A stretch of 35,699 nucleotides of DNA from the NCBI GenBank assembly GCA_018817595.1, contig JAHITU010000014.1, forward strand, positions 1 through 35,699, read 5' to 3'. Position numbers and translations under genes: made by a program. The notes beneath the pieces were generated by a model. It did no database searches. It saw only the letters and a program-made list of their open reading frames with translations, and was not told the origin of the DNA. This DNA comes from Patescibacteria group bacterium (GTDB lineage: Bacteria > Patescibacteriota > Minisyncoccia > Phycocordibacterales > UBA12079). Shown one piece after another: positions 862-21,160 of this stretch. Every line of letters begins with the position of its first letter. Within the stretch, counting starts at the first letter, position 1.

Positions 862-2649
862 ATGGATATAAGAAATATAGCAATTATAGCCCATGTAGAC
901 CATGGAAAAACAGCATTAACTGATGCGTTGCTTTCACAAACCAATATGGTAGCAGAAGGAGTTTCTATGGATTCCAATGATATAGAAAAAGAGAGAGGAA
1001 TTACTATTTACTCAAAGAATACTTCTGTTTTATATAAAGGTACTAAGGTTAACATTTTGGATACTCCTGGGCATGCCGATTTCGGATCAGAAGTAGAACG
1101 AGTTTTACGATCAGTAGACTCTGTTCTTTTGGTGGTAGATGCTGTTGAAGGTCCAATGCCTCAAACAAAGTTCGTATTAAAGAAATCTTTAGATTTAGGA
1201 TTGAAACCAATTTTAGTAATAAATAAAATAGATAAACCTGCTTCTGATGTAGAAAGGGTAAAGGAAGAAGTTTATGAATTATTCCTAGACTTGGGTGCGA
1301 CTGATGAACAATTAAATTTTGAAGTTATTTATACTGTTGGAAGAGATGGATTGGCTAAGCTAAAAATGGAGGACGAAATGAAGGATTTAATCCCTTTGTT
1401 AGATTTAATTATTGAAAAGGTGCCTCTAGCATCAAACGAAGAAGCAAATAAGCTAGCTTTAAAGGCTCAAGTGTTTAATCTTGCCTATGATAACTTTTTA
1501 GGAAGAATGGGAGTTTGCCGTATTTATCAAGGAACTATAAAGGATGGTCAAACTTTGATTGTTAAAGATGCCGAGGGTAATACTTTCACAGGAAAGATAA
1601 CAAAATTGTTTAATTTTGAAGGTTTAACTCGAAAGGAGATTAAAGAAGCTGTGGCTGGAGATATTGTTATGCTTTCAGGAATTCCAGAAATTTTCATCGG
1701 TCATACATTGGTTGATGATGAAGCAACGGAAGCTTTACCTAGAATCACTGTGGATGAACCTACCATTTCTTTGTTTATGTTTGTTAACAATTCTCCTTTT
1801 GCTGGAAGAGTAGGAAAATTATTAACTTCAAGACAAATTAGAGAGAGACTAGAAAAAGAATTGGAAATCAATGTTGGTTTAAAAGTTGATTTTAGCGGAG
1901 TTGATGGAAAATATAAAATTTATGGAAGAGGAGAATTACATTTAGCTGTTTTAATTGAAAATATGAGAAGAGAAGGTTTTGAATTAACAGTTTCTCAACC
2001 AGAAGTTATTATAAAAGAGGTAGATGGTAAAAAAATGGAACCTTTTGAAGAAACTACTATTTTAGTACCAGAAGAATTTTCTGGATCAGTTATGAAGAAA
2101 TTAGGAGAAAGAAAAGGTATTTTGACTAATATGCAAACTGAGAACGGAGAATCTAAAATGACTTTTGAAATCCCAACTCGTGGACTTTTAGGATATCGTA
2201 ACGAATTTATCGTGGATACAAAAGGAGCAGGAATTTTAACCTCTATTTTCTTAGAGTTTAGACCTTATGCAGGAGAAGTGGTTAAAACTAAATTGGGTTC
2301 GATGACATCAATGATGGGAGGTAAAGCTCTTGGTTTTGCTTTAGCTAACCTACAAGAAAGAGGAACACTGTATATAGAAACAAACACAGAGGTTTATGAA
2401 GGAATGGTTATTGGGAATGTTGCCAGTGGGGAAGAAATGGTTGTTAATCCTACTAAAGGAAAACAATTAACAAATATGAGAGCATCTGGTTCTGATGATG
2501 CTATCAAGGTGATTCCTCCTTTGAAAATCACCCTAGAAAAAGCTATCGGAATGATGCGAGAAGACGAATATTTAGAAGTTACACCTACTGATATTCGCCT
2601 AAGAAAGAAATATTTAACTGAAACAGAGAGAAAGAAACATAAAAGATAA
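862..2649 (+). CDS. typA: Ribosome-associated GTPase TypA/BipA
   Basis: Translational GTPase of the EF-G-like TypA/BipA family, which acts in ribosome assembly and stress or cold adaptation. At 595 aa it has near the usual length. The G domain shows AHVDHGKT (10-17), RGIT (45-48), DTPGH (67-71) and NKID (121-124). Domain II, the EF-G-like domains III and V, and the BipA-specific C-terminal part with the LGYRNEF and [14 protein letters not shown] stretches follow. There is no ribosome binding site: the ATG follows directly on a dispersed GACTTTCGACTAATTTT repeat. A strong terminator starts two bases after the stop. Confidence 0.97.
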
Positions 2650-9148: not shown

Positions 9149-9300
9149 GATTCCACGAGGACTCGGTCTCCAGTTCTAAATAAAATCTTTCGCTAACGCT
9201 TAGATTTTATTAAGAACTCGCGACCCCGCTCACTCAAATTTTTTTTCCGCTAAACGCTACAGAAAAATATATTTCGTTCGTTTCAAGTCCTCGTGGACCC
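9149..9300 (+). repeat. tRNA-tailed palindromic unit T1 (Trp array)
   Basis: The left end, GATTCCACGAGGACTCGG, is a slightly decayed reverse complement of the tRNA-Trp 3' end. The right end, TTCAAGTCCTCGTGGACCC, reproduces the T-loop, T-stem and acceptor. The interior holds the family core: CCAGTTCTAA, an AT stem, TTCGCTAACGCT, the return stem, TTAAGAACTCGCG, ACCCCGCTCA, then a second hairpin and TTCGTTTC. It lies downstream of tRNA-Trp in inverted orientation. Confidence 0.8.
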
Positions 9301-9301
9301 G

Positions 9302-9345
9302 TAAAATACTAAAACCAAAGCTGACGCTTTGGTTTTAGTATTTTA
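9302..9345. terminator. 20-bp hairpin linking units T1 and T2
   Basis: TAAAATACTAAAACCAAAGC (9302-9321) and its perfect complement (9326-9345) around TGAC. Similar AATACT...GCTTT hairpins link the other units of the Trp and Lys arrays. Confidence 0.7.
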
Positions 9346-9349
9346 TTGC

Positions 9350-9475
9350 GGGTCCACGAGGACTCGGTCACAAATATTTTGCTTCGCAAAATTTCGCGAC
9401 CCCGACTCGGCTTCAATTTGTTCGCAAGCTCACAAATTGGCTTCGCGCCTCCGTCTTTCGAGTCCTCGTGGACCC
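9350..9475 (+). repeat. tRNA-tailed palindromic unit T2 (Trp array)
   Basis: Bounded by a 17-bp perfect inverted repeat: GGGTCCACGAGGACTCG (9350-9366) and CGAGTCCTCGTGGACCC (9459-9475). This is exactly the tRNA-Trp T-loop-to-acceptor sequence. Inside are two hairpins (GGTCAC...GCGACC and CAATTTGTTCGCAAGC...) separated by a short ACCCCGACTCGG element. An RNA of either strand would form a three-way junction closed by a tRNA-like acceptor stem. Confidence 0.8.
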
Positions 9476-9476
9476 T

Positions 9477-9522
9477 AGAATACTAAAAGCCCAAAGCATT
9501 CGCTTTGGACTTAAAGTATTCT
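9477..9522 (-). terminator. Hairpin directly downstream of tRNA-Trp
   Basis: AGAATACT and AGTATTCT form the outer stem, with CCAAAGC-ATTC-GCTTTGG inside. It lies immediately 3' of tRNA-Trp on the minus strand and probably ends its transcript. Confidence 0.65.
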
Positions 9523-9524
9523 CG

Positions 9525-9596
9525 CGGGTCCACGAGGACTCGAACCTCGGACGACGGTTTTGGAGACCGTTGTTTTACCAACTAAACTATAGACCC
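9525..9596 (-). tRNA. trnW: tRNA-Trp (CCA)
   Basis: 72 nt on the minus strand. Acceptor GGGTCTA pairs with TGGACCC, and the discriminator is G73 as usual for Trp. The D arm is GTTTAGTTGGTAAAAC. The anticodon stem ACGGT/ACCGT encloses loop CTCCAAA with anticodon CCA. The T arm is CGAGG-TTCGAGT-CCTCG. The 3' CCA is not encoded. It follows rpmG, a common neighbour, after that gene's terminator. Its 3' end is copied in units T1 and T2. Confidence 0.95.
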
Positions 9597-10098: not shown

Positions 10099-10248
10099 GT
10101 CCGCCCAGAAGGAATCGGTTTCCAGTTCTAAGTTCAGACTTCGCCCTACGGGACTCGTTTTCACTAAGAACTCGCGACCCCGCTCAGTCGTATTTTCCTC
10201 CACTTCGTTACGGAAAATATACTCCTTCGTTTCGATCCCTACTGGTCA
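10099..10248 (+). repeat. tRNA-tailed palindromic unit K1 (Lys array)
   Basis: The left end, GTCCGCCCAGAAGGAATCG, is the reverse complement of the tRNA-Lys 3' end with one change. The right end, TTCGATCCCTACTGG, is a decayed copy of its T arm. The interior carries the shared core: CCAGTTCTAAG, a hairpin, CTAAGAACTCGCG, ACCCCGCTCAG, a second hairpin ATTTTCC...GGAAAATAT, and TTCGTTTCGA. Confidence 0.8.
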
Positions 10249-10249
10249 G

Positions 10250-10295
10250 AAAAATACTAAAACCCTAAAGCTAACGCTTTAGGGTTAAGTATTTT
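10250..10295. terminator. Hairpin linking units K1 and K2
   Basis: AAAATACT plus AACCCTAAAGC pairs with GCTTTAGGGTT plus AGTATTTT around TAAC. It has the same design as the linker at 9302-9345. Confidence 0.7.
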
Positions 10296-10297
10296 GT

Positions 10298-10466
10298 GTC
10301 CGCCCAGTAGTTCGTCCTGACGGTCTCTAAATAAAATTCTTCGCTATCGCTCGAATTTGTATTAAGAGCCGCGGGACACGGCTCATAGTTGTTCGCTATC
10401 GCTCTCAACATATTCCGCCGTTCGATTCCAAACGAAAGTAAAGAAATTTACTTTCTCTGGGCGGAC
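10298..10466 (+). repeat. tRNA-tailed palindromic unit K2 with extra hairpin
   Basis: Starts GTCCGCCCAGTAG and ends TTCGATTCC...GGGCGGAC, the tRNA-Lys 3' end. The T-arm/acceptor copy is interrupted at 10430-10458 by GAAAGTAAA-GAAA-TTTACTTTC. Interior hairpins carry TTCGCTATCGCTC loops. The first stem is CTCTAA/TTAAGAG instead of GTTCTAA/TTAAGAAC, a paired change that keeps the helix. Confidence 0.78.
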
Positions 10467-10500: not shown

Positions 10501-10592
10501 GTCCGCCCAGTAGGAATCGAACCTACGACCTACCGGTTAAGAGCCATTGAGACTTGCGAATCTCGTCTCAATCTCCACCAGCTTGGACTAAT
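10501..10592 (-). pseudogene. Interrupted tRNA-Lys copy, 3' half intact
   Basis: On the minus strand the sequence from GGCTCTTAACCGG through the T arm to GGGCGGAC is identical to the functional tRNA-Lys. In place of the 3' end of the D arm and start of the anticodon stem sits a hairpin: ATTGAGAC (10546-10553), loop TTGCGAATCTC (10554-10564), GTCTCAAT (10565-10572), as read on the plus strand. The 5' part (AGCTGGTGGAG, TAGTCC) is only partly tRNA-like and cannot pair as an acceptor. Not a functional tRNA as it stands. Confidence 0.75.
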
Positions 10593-10614
10593 TTATTTAT
10601 TTAGAGTTTAATTG

Positions 10615-10687
10615 TCCGCCCAGTAGGAATCGAACCTACGACCTACCGGTTAAGAGCCGGTTGCTCTACCAGCTGAGCTATAGGCGG
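10615..10687 (-). tRNA. trnK: tRNA-Lys (CTT)
   Basis: 73 nt. Acceptor CCGCCTA pairs with TGGGCGG, and the discriminator is A. The D arm is GCTCAGCTGGTAGAGC, the anticodon stem ACCGG/CCGGT has loop CTCTTAA, and the T arm is GTAGG-TTCGATT-CCTAC. C at position 1 is unusual for an elongator. It is flanked on both sides by interrupted copies of itself and followed downstream by units K2 and K1. No CCA is encoded. Confidence 0.92.
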
Positions 10688-10743
10688 ATTTTGGTATATT
10701 TACTATTTTATTCTCAATCTATTCTCATCTGACCGACTCTTTT

Positions 10744-10804
10744 GTTAAGAGCCATTAATCCTTGCGAATCTCGGATTAATCTCTACCAGCTGAGCTATAG
10801 GCGG
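10744..10804 (-). pseudogene. Interrupted tRNA-Lys copy, 5' half intact
   Basis: On the minus strand the first 24 bases (acceptor 5' strand and D arm, CCGCCTATAGCTCAGC...) are identical to the functional tRNA-Lys. A hairpin then follows, with plus-strand arms ATTAATCC (10754-10761) and GGATTAAT (10773-10780) and the same TTGCGAATCTC loop as the copy at 10501. After GGCTCTTAAC the tRNA similarity stops. There is no anticodon 3' strand or T arm. Confidence 0.75.
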
Positions 10805-20515: not shown

Positions 20516-20598
20516 GCGTCGGTGGTAGAGCGGTCAAATACTCGAGTCTGTAAAACTCGCGCCTTCGGGCTACGCAGGTTCGAATCCTGCCCGGCGCA
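20516..20598 (+). tRNA. trnY: tRNA-Tyr (GTA)
   Basis: An 83-nt class II tRNA. Acceptor GCGTCGG pairs with CCGGCGC, with discriminator A73. The anticodon stem CGAGT/ACTCG encloses CTGTAAA. A variable arm is built on GCCTTCGGGC, and the T arm is GCAGG-TTCGAAT-CCTGC. A perfect terminator hairpin begins two bases later, and its stem can extend into the acceptor sequence because an inverted copy of the tRNA 3' end follows. Confidence 0.96.
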
Positions 20599-20600
20599 CA

Positions 20601-20640
20601 TAATAGAAAAAACCAGCAATTTTGCTGGTTTTTTCTATTA
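20601..20640. terminator. tRNA-Tyr terminator, 19-bp perfect stem
   Basis: TAATAGAAAAAACCAGCAA (20601-20619) and its complement (20622-20640). With the flanking GGCGCACA and TGTGCGCC, the palindrome extends to about 30 bp per arm and takes in the tRNA acceptor strand. Confidence 0.85.
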
Positions 20641-20813
20641 TGTGCGCCGGGAGAAAGCCAAGGTATTGGCTTTCGGCAGGATTCGAAAGGCGGAGCATGT
20701 CGCACGGAGCGAAGCGAGTACGACAGCGAGCCGGGGTCGAAGGTTCTTAATGAAATATGAGCGATAGCGAAATATTTCATTTAGAAACCTGTGACCGAAC
20801 CTGCCCGGCGCAC
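20641..20813 (-). repeat. tRNA-tailed palindromic unit Y1 (Tyr array)
   Basis: The ends are inverted copies of the tRNA-Tyr 3' end (TGTGCGCCGGG...GGCAGGATTCGAA at left, CCGAACCTGCCCGGCGCAC at right). The left copy is interrupted by GAAAGCCAA-GGTA-TTGGCTTTC (20653-20674). The minus strand carries the family core: GGTCACAGGTTTCTAA, a hairpin with loop TTCGCTATCGCTC, TTAAGAACC, CGACCCCGGCTCG, a second hairpin and CTTTCGAA. Confidence 0.8.
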
Positions 20814-20867
20814 TATACAAAATTAAAACAGCACCAAAGTGCTGTTTTAATTTTGTATCATAGTGCC
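20814..20867. terminator. Hairpin linking units Y1 and Y2
   Basis: AAATTAAAACAGCAC and GTGCTGTTTTAATTT form a perfect stem around CAAA (20819-20852). The flanks CACTATA and TATCATAGTG extend the inverted repeat. Confidence 0.75.
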
Positions 20868-21160
20868 CCGGGCAGGATTCGAAACGAAGAAGTTTTAAAA
20901 AACTTCTGAGCGAGGTCACGAGTTCTTAGTGAAATTAAGTTCGCAGAACGAAAATTTCACTTAGAACTGGGGTGAGATGCGACCTCTGGGAGCATTGCAA
21001 GATCCTTTTGAGATATTATAGAGAGAGTTTATGAACGAAAATAATATCCAAAAGGTGTACAGCTCCTGTAAGGAGAGAATCCTGCCCAAATCACTAGGCT
21101 CATCAGAGGCTTCTTTATAGTACTATTTAGAACTGGGGACCGAACCTGCCCAGTTCACAG
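20868..21160 (-). repeat. tRNA-tailed palindromic unit Y2, interrupted by an insert
   Basis: Starts CCCCGGGCAGGATTCGAA and ends ACCGAACCTGCCCAGTTCAC, the second being a decayed tRNA-Tyr acceptor copy. The minus strand has TAAGAACTCGTGACCTCGC and CCCCAGTTCTAAG, matching T1 and K1 closely. Within the second motif lies a 154-bp insert flanked by TTAGAACTGGGG direct repeats. Confidence 0.78.
20961..21138. mobile_element. 154-bp structured insert between 12-bp direct repeats
   Basis: TTAGAACTGGGG occurs at 20961-20972 and 21127-21138. The insert between them can fold: CCTTTTG-A-GATATTAT pairs with ATAATATC-CAAAAGG, flanked by GGAGC/GCTCC and, outside, CCTCTG/CAGAGG. It has no terminal inverted repeats and no reading frame. 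It could be a small mobile element with target duplication, or an RNA gene that arrived by recombination. Confidence 0.6.

Follow-up and report, generated by a model that had tools for sequence, protein, structure and literature searches.

The window, that is the whole stretch of 35,699 nucleotides that was analysed, belongs to an 815-kb source genome of 34 contigs. A tRNA-Trp gene in the window is followed on its 3' side by an array of two structured units, T2 and T1, with hairpins linking the gene to T2 and T2 to T1:

9524..9596, minus strand: tRNA-Trp(CCA), host gene of the array (ARAGORN and Rfam RF00005)
9476..9523, minus strand: hairpin H1 (AGAATACT...AGTATTCT), terminator-like, from the tRNA-Trp 3' end to the first unit (sequence; modal gap between tRNA and unit in relatives 45-50 nt)
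9350..9476, minus strand: unit T2 (subtype A), a three-way junction (covariance model R1, E = 9.9e-18)
9459..9475, minus strand: left (inverted) arm of T2, CGAGTCCTCGTGGACCC (16 of 17 scored positions; pairs perfectly with the right arm)
9350..9366, minus strand: right (direct) arm of T2, GGGTCCACGAGGACTCG, a copy of tRNA-Trp 57-73 (17 of 17)
9301..9349, minus strand: hairpin H2, from T2 to T1 (sequence)
9149..9301, minus strand: unit T1 (subtype B), distal, with a right arm decayed at its outer end (covariance model, E = 2.6e-36)

The T2 ends GGGTCCACGAGGACTCG and CGAGTCCTCGTGGACCC form a perfect 17-bp inverted pair with the same sequence as the T-loop-to-acceptor strand of tRNA-Trp, and the three-way junction (predicted fold -64.6 kcal/mol, z -8.7) is closed by the resulting helix of tRNA-Trp 57-73 and its inverse. 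The distal arm of T1 lacks the final CCC. An initial annotation, made from the sequence alone, had described these two units, their tRNA-derived inverted ends and the linking hairpins, and all of them were recovered. It had also pointed to related units beside tRNA-Lys (K1, K2) and tRNA-Tyr (Y1, Y2), and the covariance model matched at all four:

10614..10687, minus strand: tRNA-Lys(CTT) (ARAGORN)
10688..10804, minus strand: incomplete copy of the 5' half of tRNA-Lys that contains a hairpin insert, upstream of the gene; a 5'-side counterpart (sequence)
10506..10595, minus strand: partial tRNA-Lys copy with intact 3' half, between tRNA-Lys and K2 (sequence)
10310..10433, minus strand: unit K2, divergent subtype with a GTCC:GGAC junction and a 23-nt hairpin in the left arm (covariance model, E = 1.6e-7; sequence)
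10101..10250, minus strand: unit K1 (subtype B) of the Lys array (covariance model, E = 7.7e-30)
20516..20599, plus strand: tRNA-Tyr(GTA) (ARAGORN)
20600..20667, plus strand: hairpin H, outer left arm and part of a 23-nt hairpin insert, ahead of unit Y1 (sequence)
20668..20811, plus strand: unit Y1 (subtype A) (covariance model, E = 4.7e-23)
20864..21160 (end approximate), plus strand: unit Y2 (subtype B), including a nested insert after TTAGAACTGGGG (covariance model at 20864-20990, E = 7e-13)

The partial copy at 10506-10595 shares a direct repeat of 32/32 nt with the 3' part of tRNA-Lys. In the partial copies that flank this gene on both sides, a 27-nt hairpin (ATTNANNCGAGATTCGCAAGNNTNAAT) substitutes for the 5' strand of the anticodon stem. 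The nested insert of unit Y2 (TGAGATGCGACCTCTGGGAGCATTGCAAGATCC..., approximately 20970-21135 of the window) has the repeated TTAGAACTGGGG at both bounds, and an insert related to it is found at the end of a Ser array at another locus (L015).

A covariance model of 152 positions (R1), built from 17 units, identified 38 matches in the source genome, with E-values reaching 1e-36. Of the 128 units with flanking DNA, 111 have an upstream tRNA or tmRNA gene on the same strand. Together the two results rule out chance. Many of the remaining 17, inspected singly, lie behind tRNA-like or tmRNA ends that were missed by ARAGORN, at contig starts or behind one unknown RNA. A blastn search against the source genome revealed related stretches at about 12 further places, and each one inspected was on the 3' side of a tRNA or tmRNA gene. 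The core, which might have turned out to occur mostly elsewhere, is found almost only beside tRNA genes; the host tRNAs cover most amino-acid types. The gap between tRNA and first unit is usually 45-50 nt and is occupied by a terminator-like hairpin, referred to here as H.

The covariance-model search of Patescibacteria that the initial annotation had proposed showed matches in 41 of 61 genomes sampled from the order of the source (none in the other 20), among them all 11 genomes of its own family, and in 15 of 287 genomes of a phylum-wide sample, the source genome counted. The same B-type core is present in Yonathbacteria, in other Paceibacterota and in Candidatus Campbellbacteria GW2011_OD1_34_28; as the latter is a complete chromosome (CP011215, 752,630 bp), an assembly artefact does not account for the pattern. 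The core measures approximately 95-140 bp and the unit approximately 125-190 bp, or up to about 200 bp; the units contain no gene and are too short and too structured to encode one. Searches of the units against Rfam gave no match at the gathering threshold and no credible one at a relaxed threshold, only the tRNAs themselves being matched. By-eye comparison with hammerhead-like ribozymes found the CUGAUGA core to be absent, and an exact match to the B-core pattern was not found in viral contigs. In the open-access literature searched, no description of such elements was found, nor of such behaviour in any known mobile element.

Read on the tRNA strand, a unit follows the order tRNA 57-74, hairpin H, inverted tRNA 57-73 (left arm), GAAA, helix P2, GGGGTC, hairpin P3, GACC and direct tRNA 57-73 (right arm). 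Subtypes A and B are common, and in others the junction helix GGTC:GACC is swapped for GACC:GGTC or GTCC:GGAC, showing that the junction is truly paired. Among 119 distinct aligned units, 92% of the cells are paired, and the covariation score, on an alignment fitted to the model, is 0.491 vs 0.169 for shuffled units and 0.05-0.12 when the pairing partners are slid, so the fold is constrained. Conservation of the inner arms is biased, because the units were chosen on those very positions. For 127 of 128 units the tRNA strand gives the more stable fold of the interior, and for none does the opposite strand; the mean advantage (-9.9 kcal/mol, vs -6.3 in shuffles) is partly due to the purine-rich composition of that strand. 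Wobble pairs counted inside each hairpin are 16 G.U vs 1 A.C for P3 and 16 vs 2 for H on the tRNA strand, and acceptor stems of tRNAs in these genomes show 32 G.U vs 2 A.C. A count on alignment columns (A2) instead gave 42 G.U vs 53 A.C, a result that is probably distorted by register differences among subtypes; we trust the hairpin count of P3 over it because the helices of subtypes A and B seem to be one base out of register in A2. This preference for G.U on the tRNA strand suggests that selection acts on an RNA or on one specific single strand, which counts against the mobile reading proposed below. The initial annotation had placed the units 3' of the tRNA and in opposite orientation to it: the position holds, whereas the orientation does not, given the better folding and wobble bias of the tRNA strand. 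Since the arms are inverted repeats, the opposite orientation was a mere choice of reading strand.

Positions 57-73 of the tRNA are copied directly in the right arm and, imperfectly, in inverse in the left arm. In proximal units, the right arm matches the adjacent tRNA at a mean of 14.0 of 17 positions vs 8.9 for other tRNAs, and in 34 of 109 units it is identical to the adjacent tRNA at 17/17. The corresponding values for the left arm are 11.7 and 8.8, a weaker match that is partly explained by a 23-nt hairpin which many left arms hold at the boundary of acceptor and T-stem. Fifteen pairs of cores at different tRNAs are 80-98% identical, and every core among them has arms that match the tRNA beside it; in a Trp/Gln pair (core identity 0.88), the left arms match their own tRNAs at 16 and 15 positions vs 8 and 8 in the cross comparison. 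Therefore the core is common to the sites without its ends. The initial annotation had likewise seen a shared interior with locally matched ends, and had considered that the ends might prove unrelated to the adjacent tRNA, which they match. On both sides the unit boundaries fall at the universal T-loop sequence TTCGA. Outside the core all sequence is local: to the right lies a direct copy of tRNA 57-74, and to the left the target end, the hairpin and the inverted end, which make up one long palindrome. The tRNA gene stays intact beside the units, and arrays of several units occur at one tRNA. The three-way junction that had been predicted for the RNA stands when taken on the tRNA strand; its supposed tRNA-like acceptor stem is duplicated target sequence. 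The alternative of a tRNA-mimic RNA was not confirmed.

In three arrays, the freshest ones, the entire local palindrome is duplicated almost exactly. At tRNA-Thr of G006 a single core lies between two exact copies (81/81 bp) of the segment composed of tRNA end, H and inverted arm, and the second copy continues into unrelated DNA. Duplicates of the same kind lie between two different cores at a tRNA-Trp (L050, 87/88 bp) and a tRNA-Arg (L051, 85/86 bp). As judged from their sequences, these palindrome duplicates look like target-site duplications. At tRNA-Phe of the source genome, a repeat of 50/50 bp extends from C56 through H; its first copy runs on into the inverse of its own sequence before the hairpin (TATTTTG) and the second into other DNA. 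From this we infer that fold-back at H is the likeliest origin of the inverted arm. Despite the exact 50-bp duplicate, the left arm at Phe is already imperfect and carries the 23-nt hairpin, which speaks against the simplest fold-back model, with a perfect copy at birth. Most single-unit sites have H without visible duplication (median identity 0.51 vs 0.49 between arrays), and the idea that hairpin H is part of every target duplication was rejected, being supported in a few arrays but not in most. The units also turn over: tRNA-Lys(CTT) of G007 is without a unit and is a candidate empty site, the same gene in G006 has one, and the start of the downstream gene is the same; sister species have different core types at the same tRNA; and degenerate remnants occur at tRNA-Ser of G007.

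A 5'-side counterpart was also observed. Of 113 tRNA genes in three genomes, 22 are preceded by a copy of their own 5' part (17 nt or more, with at least 14 matches), arranged in most cases as 5' copy, structured insert and intact tRNA. tRNA loops therefore look like general insertion sites at which local duplication keeps one good copy of the gene. Several 5'-side inserts have a hairpin, AAGCAAAYTKCTTTGCTT, in common with left-arm hairpins of the 3' units. Cases of the 5' arrangement include L011:1091-1278 (plus strand) and stretches upstream of tRNAs in L156, L162, L168, L176, L180, L184, L185, L200 and L210.

Other RNA-like stretches accompany units at some loci. A conserved stretch of about 100 nt (AAAGGTGCACGAGGATCC...GGTTCCAGNCCGAGGTTGCCCGC) without an Rfam match precedes units in L032 (approximately 1699-1800, minus strand), L052, L100 and L109 and, in more divergent form, is seen in L130, L141 and L072; several of the units concerned have tRNA-Ser-like arms. 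In L013 (1-150, plus strand) a tRNA-Ile(GAT)-like gene, missed by ARAGORN, has its D-arm and anticodon arm separated by a hairpin (ATGAACAGTGTAAAGACACTGTTCAT) and is followed by a unit with matching arms.

Protein families that could move the units were compared with their occurrence across the 61 genomes. Genomes with both units and Y1_Tnp numbered 35, those with only one of the two 6 and 6, and those with neither 14 (OR 13.6, p = 3e-5, with kinship ignored and three protein families tried); across 50 other families, the association gave OR 9.3 and p = 9e-4. No relation between units and genome size was detectable. The Y1_Tnp matches are mostly RAYT-like ORFs of more than 200 aa. Nearly all of 14 inspected Y1 genes have palindromes of their own alongside that are unrelated to the units, and in none of them is a full-length unit the flanking repeat of the gene; full-length units lie near Y1 genes only at the tRNA-Leu array of contig C32. 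Because the Y1 genes carry other palindromes, we treat the Y1 transposase as a hypothetical enzyme for the units. Short, perfect, gene-specific palindromes (e.g., AAAAGTAGGGGTGCTACCCCTACTTTT) were seen alongside the Y1/RAYT-like genes L239:877-1635, L011:261-944 and L240-L255. Copying by a reverse transcriptase was considered and rejected: RVT_1 shows no association with units (OR 0.7), and searches of the unit-bearing genomes G000 (the source genome), G001, G003 and G007 did not find it. Phage_integrase, present in 57 of 61 genomes and mostly in one copy, is uninformative on units.

We consider it likely that the units are small non-coding mobile elements which insert into the T-loop (positions 56/57) of tRNA and tmRNA genes and which obtain their ends from the local target, thereby preserving the tRNA. 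One of the two readings offered initially was a mobile unit that acquires or copies the end of its target tRNA, and shared cores with local ends, target duplications and turnover between sister species argue for it. Insertion would start with a nick at the T-loop of the folded, single-stranded tRNA gene, and repair synthesis would re-copy positions 57-74 together with the terminator hairpin. An existing palindrome might then be re-copied, giving the duplications of 81-88 bp; at a naive site, the strand might instead fold back at the hairpin and copy the tRNA end in inverse, giving the left arm. The core would be joined at the point of fold-back or re-copying, and repeated insertion at one tRNA would build arrays. 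The likeliest enzyme, to judge from the correlation across genomes, would be a Y1 (HUH) single-strand transposase of RAYT or TIRYT type acting in trans. The units perhaps also have a role as RNA, possibly inside this mobility mechanism.

The strong covariation, the spread through the order and a G.U bias resembling that of acceptor stems would be expected of a functional RNA linked to the tRNA, produced by read-through past the hairpin and acting in tRNA 3'-end processing, in protection or as a decoy for enzymes of the acceptor/T-arm, with ends that match by functional demand. We regard this as unlikely, as units are patchy across sister species and tRNAs and missing from 20 genomes of the order sample, the core type differs at the same tRNA, near-exact duplications, nested inserts and degenerate remnants occur, and a terminator-like hairpin stands between tRNA and unit.

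Rather improbable in our view is a self-retargeting, RNA-dependent element, in which RNA of the tRNA strand, whose left arm complements tRNA 57-73, would guide the Y1 transposase and the guide would be rewritten by copying each new target, with a mirror-image family at the 5' side. If this were true, the rewriting after each insertion would allow one core to colonise every tRNA gene. A passive by-product, in which template switching during replication at tRNA terminator hairpins and TTCGA microhomology in the T-loop spread the cores with no dedicated enzyme, appears quite improbable: although both boundaries lie at the universal T-loop sequence, the fold-back signature occurs at Phe and the unit has no gene, the core has a conserved structure that covaries, comes in several subtypes across an order and is associated with Y1_Tnp. 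Classical integration by a tyrosine recombinase, with the arms as attL and attR, would explain why the tRNA 3' end is directly duplicated, since the att sites of integrative elements produce such repeats, but is extremely improbable given one core type at many tRNAs, the inverted arm and palindrome, the missing cargo, and Phage_integrase, which is near-universal but was not detected in two genomes with units, G007 (one contig) and G002.

If the units are mobile elements with target-derived ends, they depart from known mobile elements, whose ends are constant and which select where to insert; the ends of the units are apparently remade from the site, and therefore a single core can reuse essential, often single-copy tRNA genes as safe harbours. 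Such elements offer a testable case of target-templated transposition. They account for repeated, confusing tRNA fragments in Patescibacteria genomes and matter for annotating tRNAs in this large, uncultured group of ultra-small bacteria; with the covariance model, the family can be searched for.

Among known systems, tRNA-directed integrative elements with attB in the T-arm target the 3' part of a tRNA and restore it by duplication; they bring their own integrase, and an attP identical to one tRNA ties them to that tRNA. The units share the targeting and the duplication, but have neither integrase nor cargo, use one core for many tRNAs and possess an inverted arm. Dictyostelium TRE retrotransposons insert at a preferred distance from tRNA genes, a preference that the units appear to share; TREs are autonomous retroelements, whereas RVT_1 was not found in the source genome. 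The units are also unlike group I or II introns and retrons, since they show no Rfam ribozyme core and RVT_1 was not found in the four genomes named above, and unlike known tRNA-like or tmRNA-like RNA families, as only the tRNAs themselves match Rfam. With Rickettsia palindromic elements they share small size, palindromic form and an apparently functional host gene, and we know of no such element with target-copied ends. Those elements lie within ORFs, have CGTC ends and are small palindromes in genes that are still apparently functional (PMC3733652). MITEs (70-300 bp) resemble the units in size, in lacking coding capacity and in having inverted repeats at both ends; the terminal inverted repeats of MITEs are part of the element (PMC3733652), whereas those of the units change with the target tRNA, similar cores having different arms. 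REPs are 20-40 bp long, carry GTAG (or CGTC) as a tag at one end and are often found flanking RAYT genes, and the Y1 genes seen here with their own palindromes resemble TIR-flanked tyrosine transposases (PMC3733652). Like REP, BIME and REPIN sequences, which are presumably mobilised in trans by Y1 transposases, the units are short, palindromic, non-coding and multi-copy, and their presence correlates with Y1_Tnp when kinship is ignored; they differ as larger three-way junctions tied to tRNA 3' ends, with target-derived ends, and in not being flanking repeats of the Y1 genes examined. No tested definition fits the units and no family can be named for them; they behave like a non-autonomous, structure-dependent element at tRNA loops.
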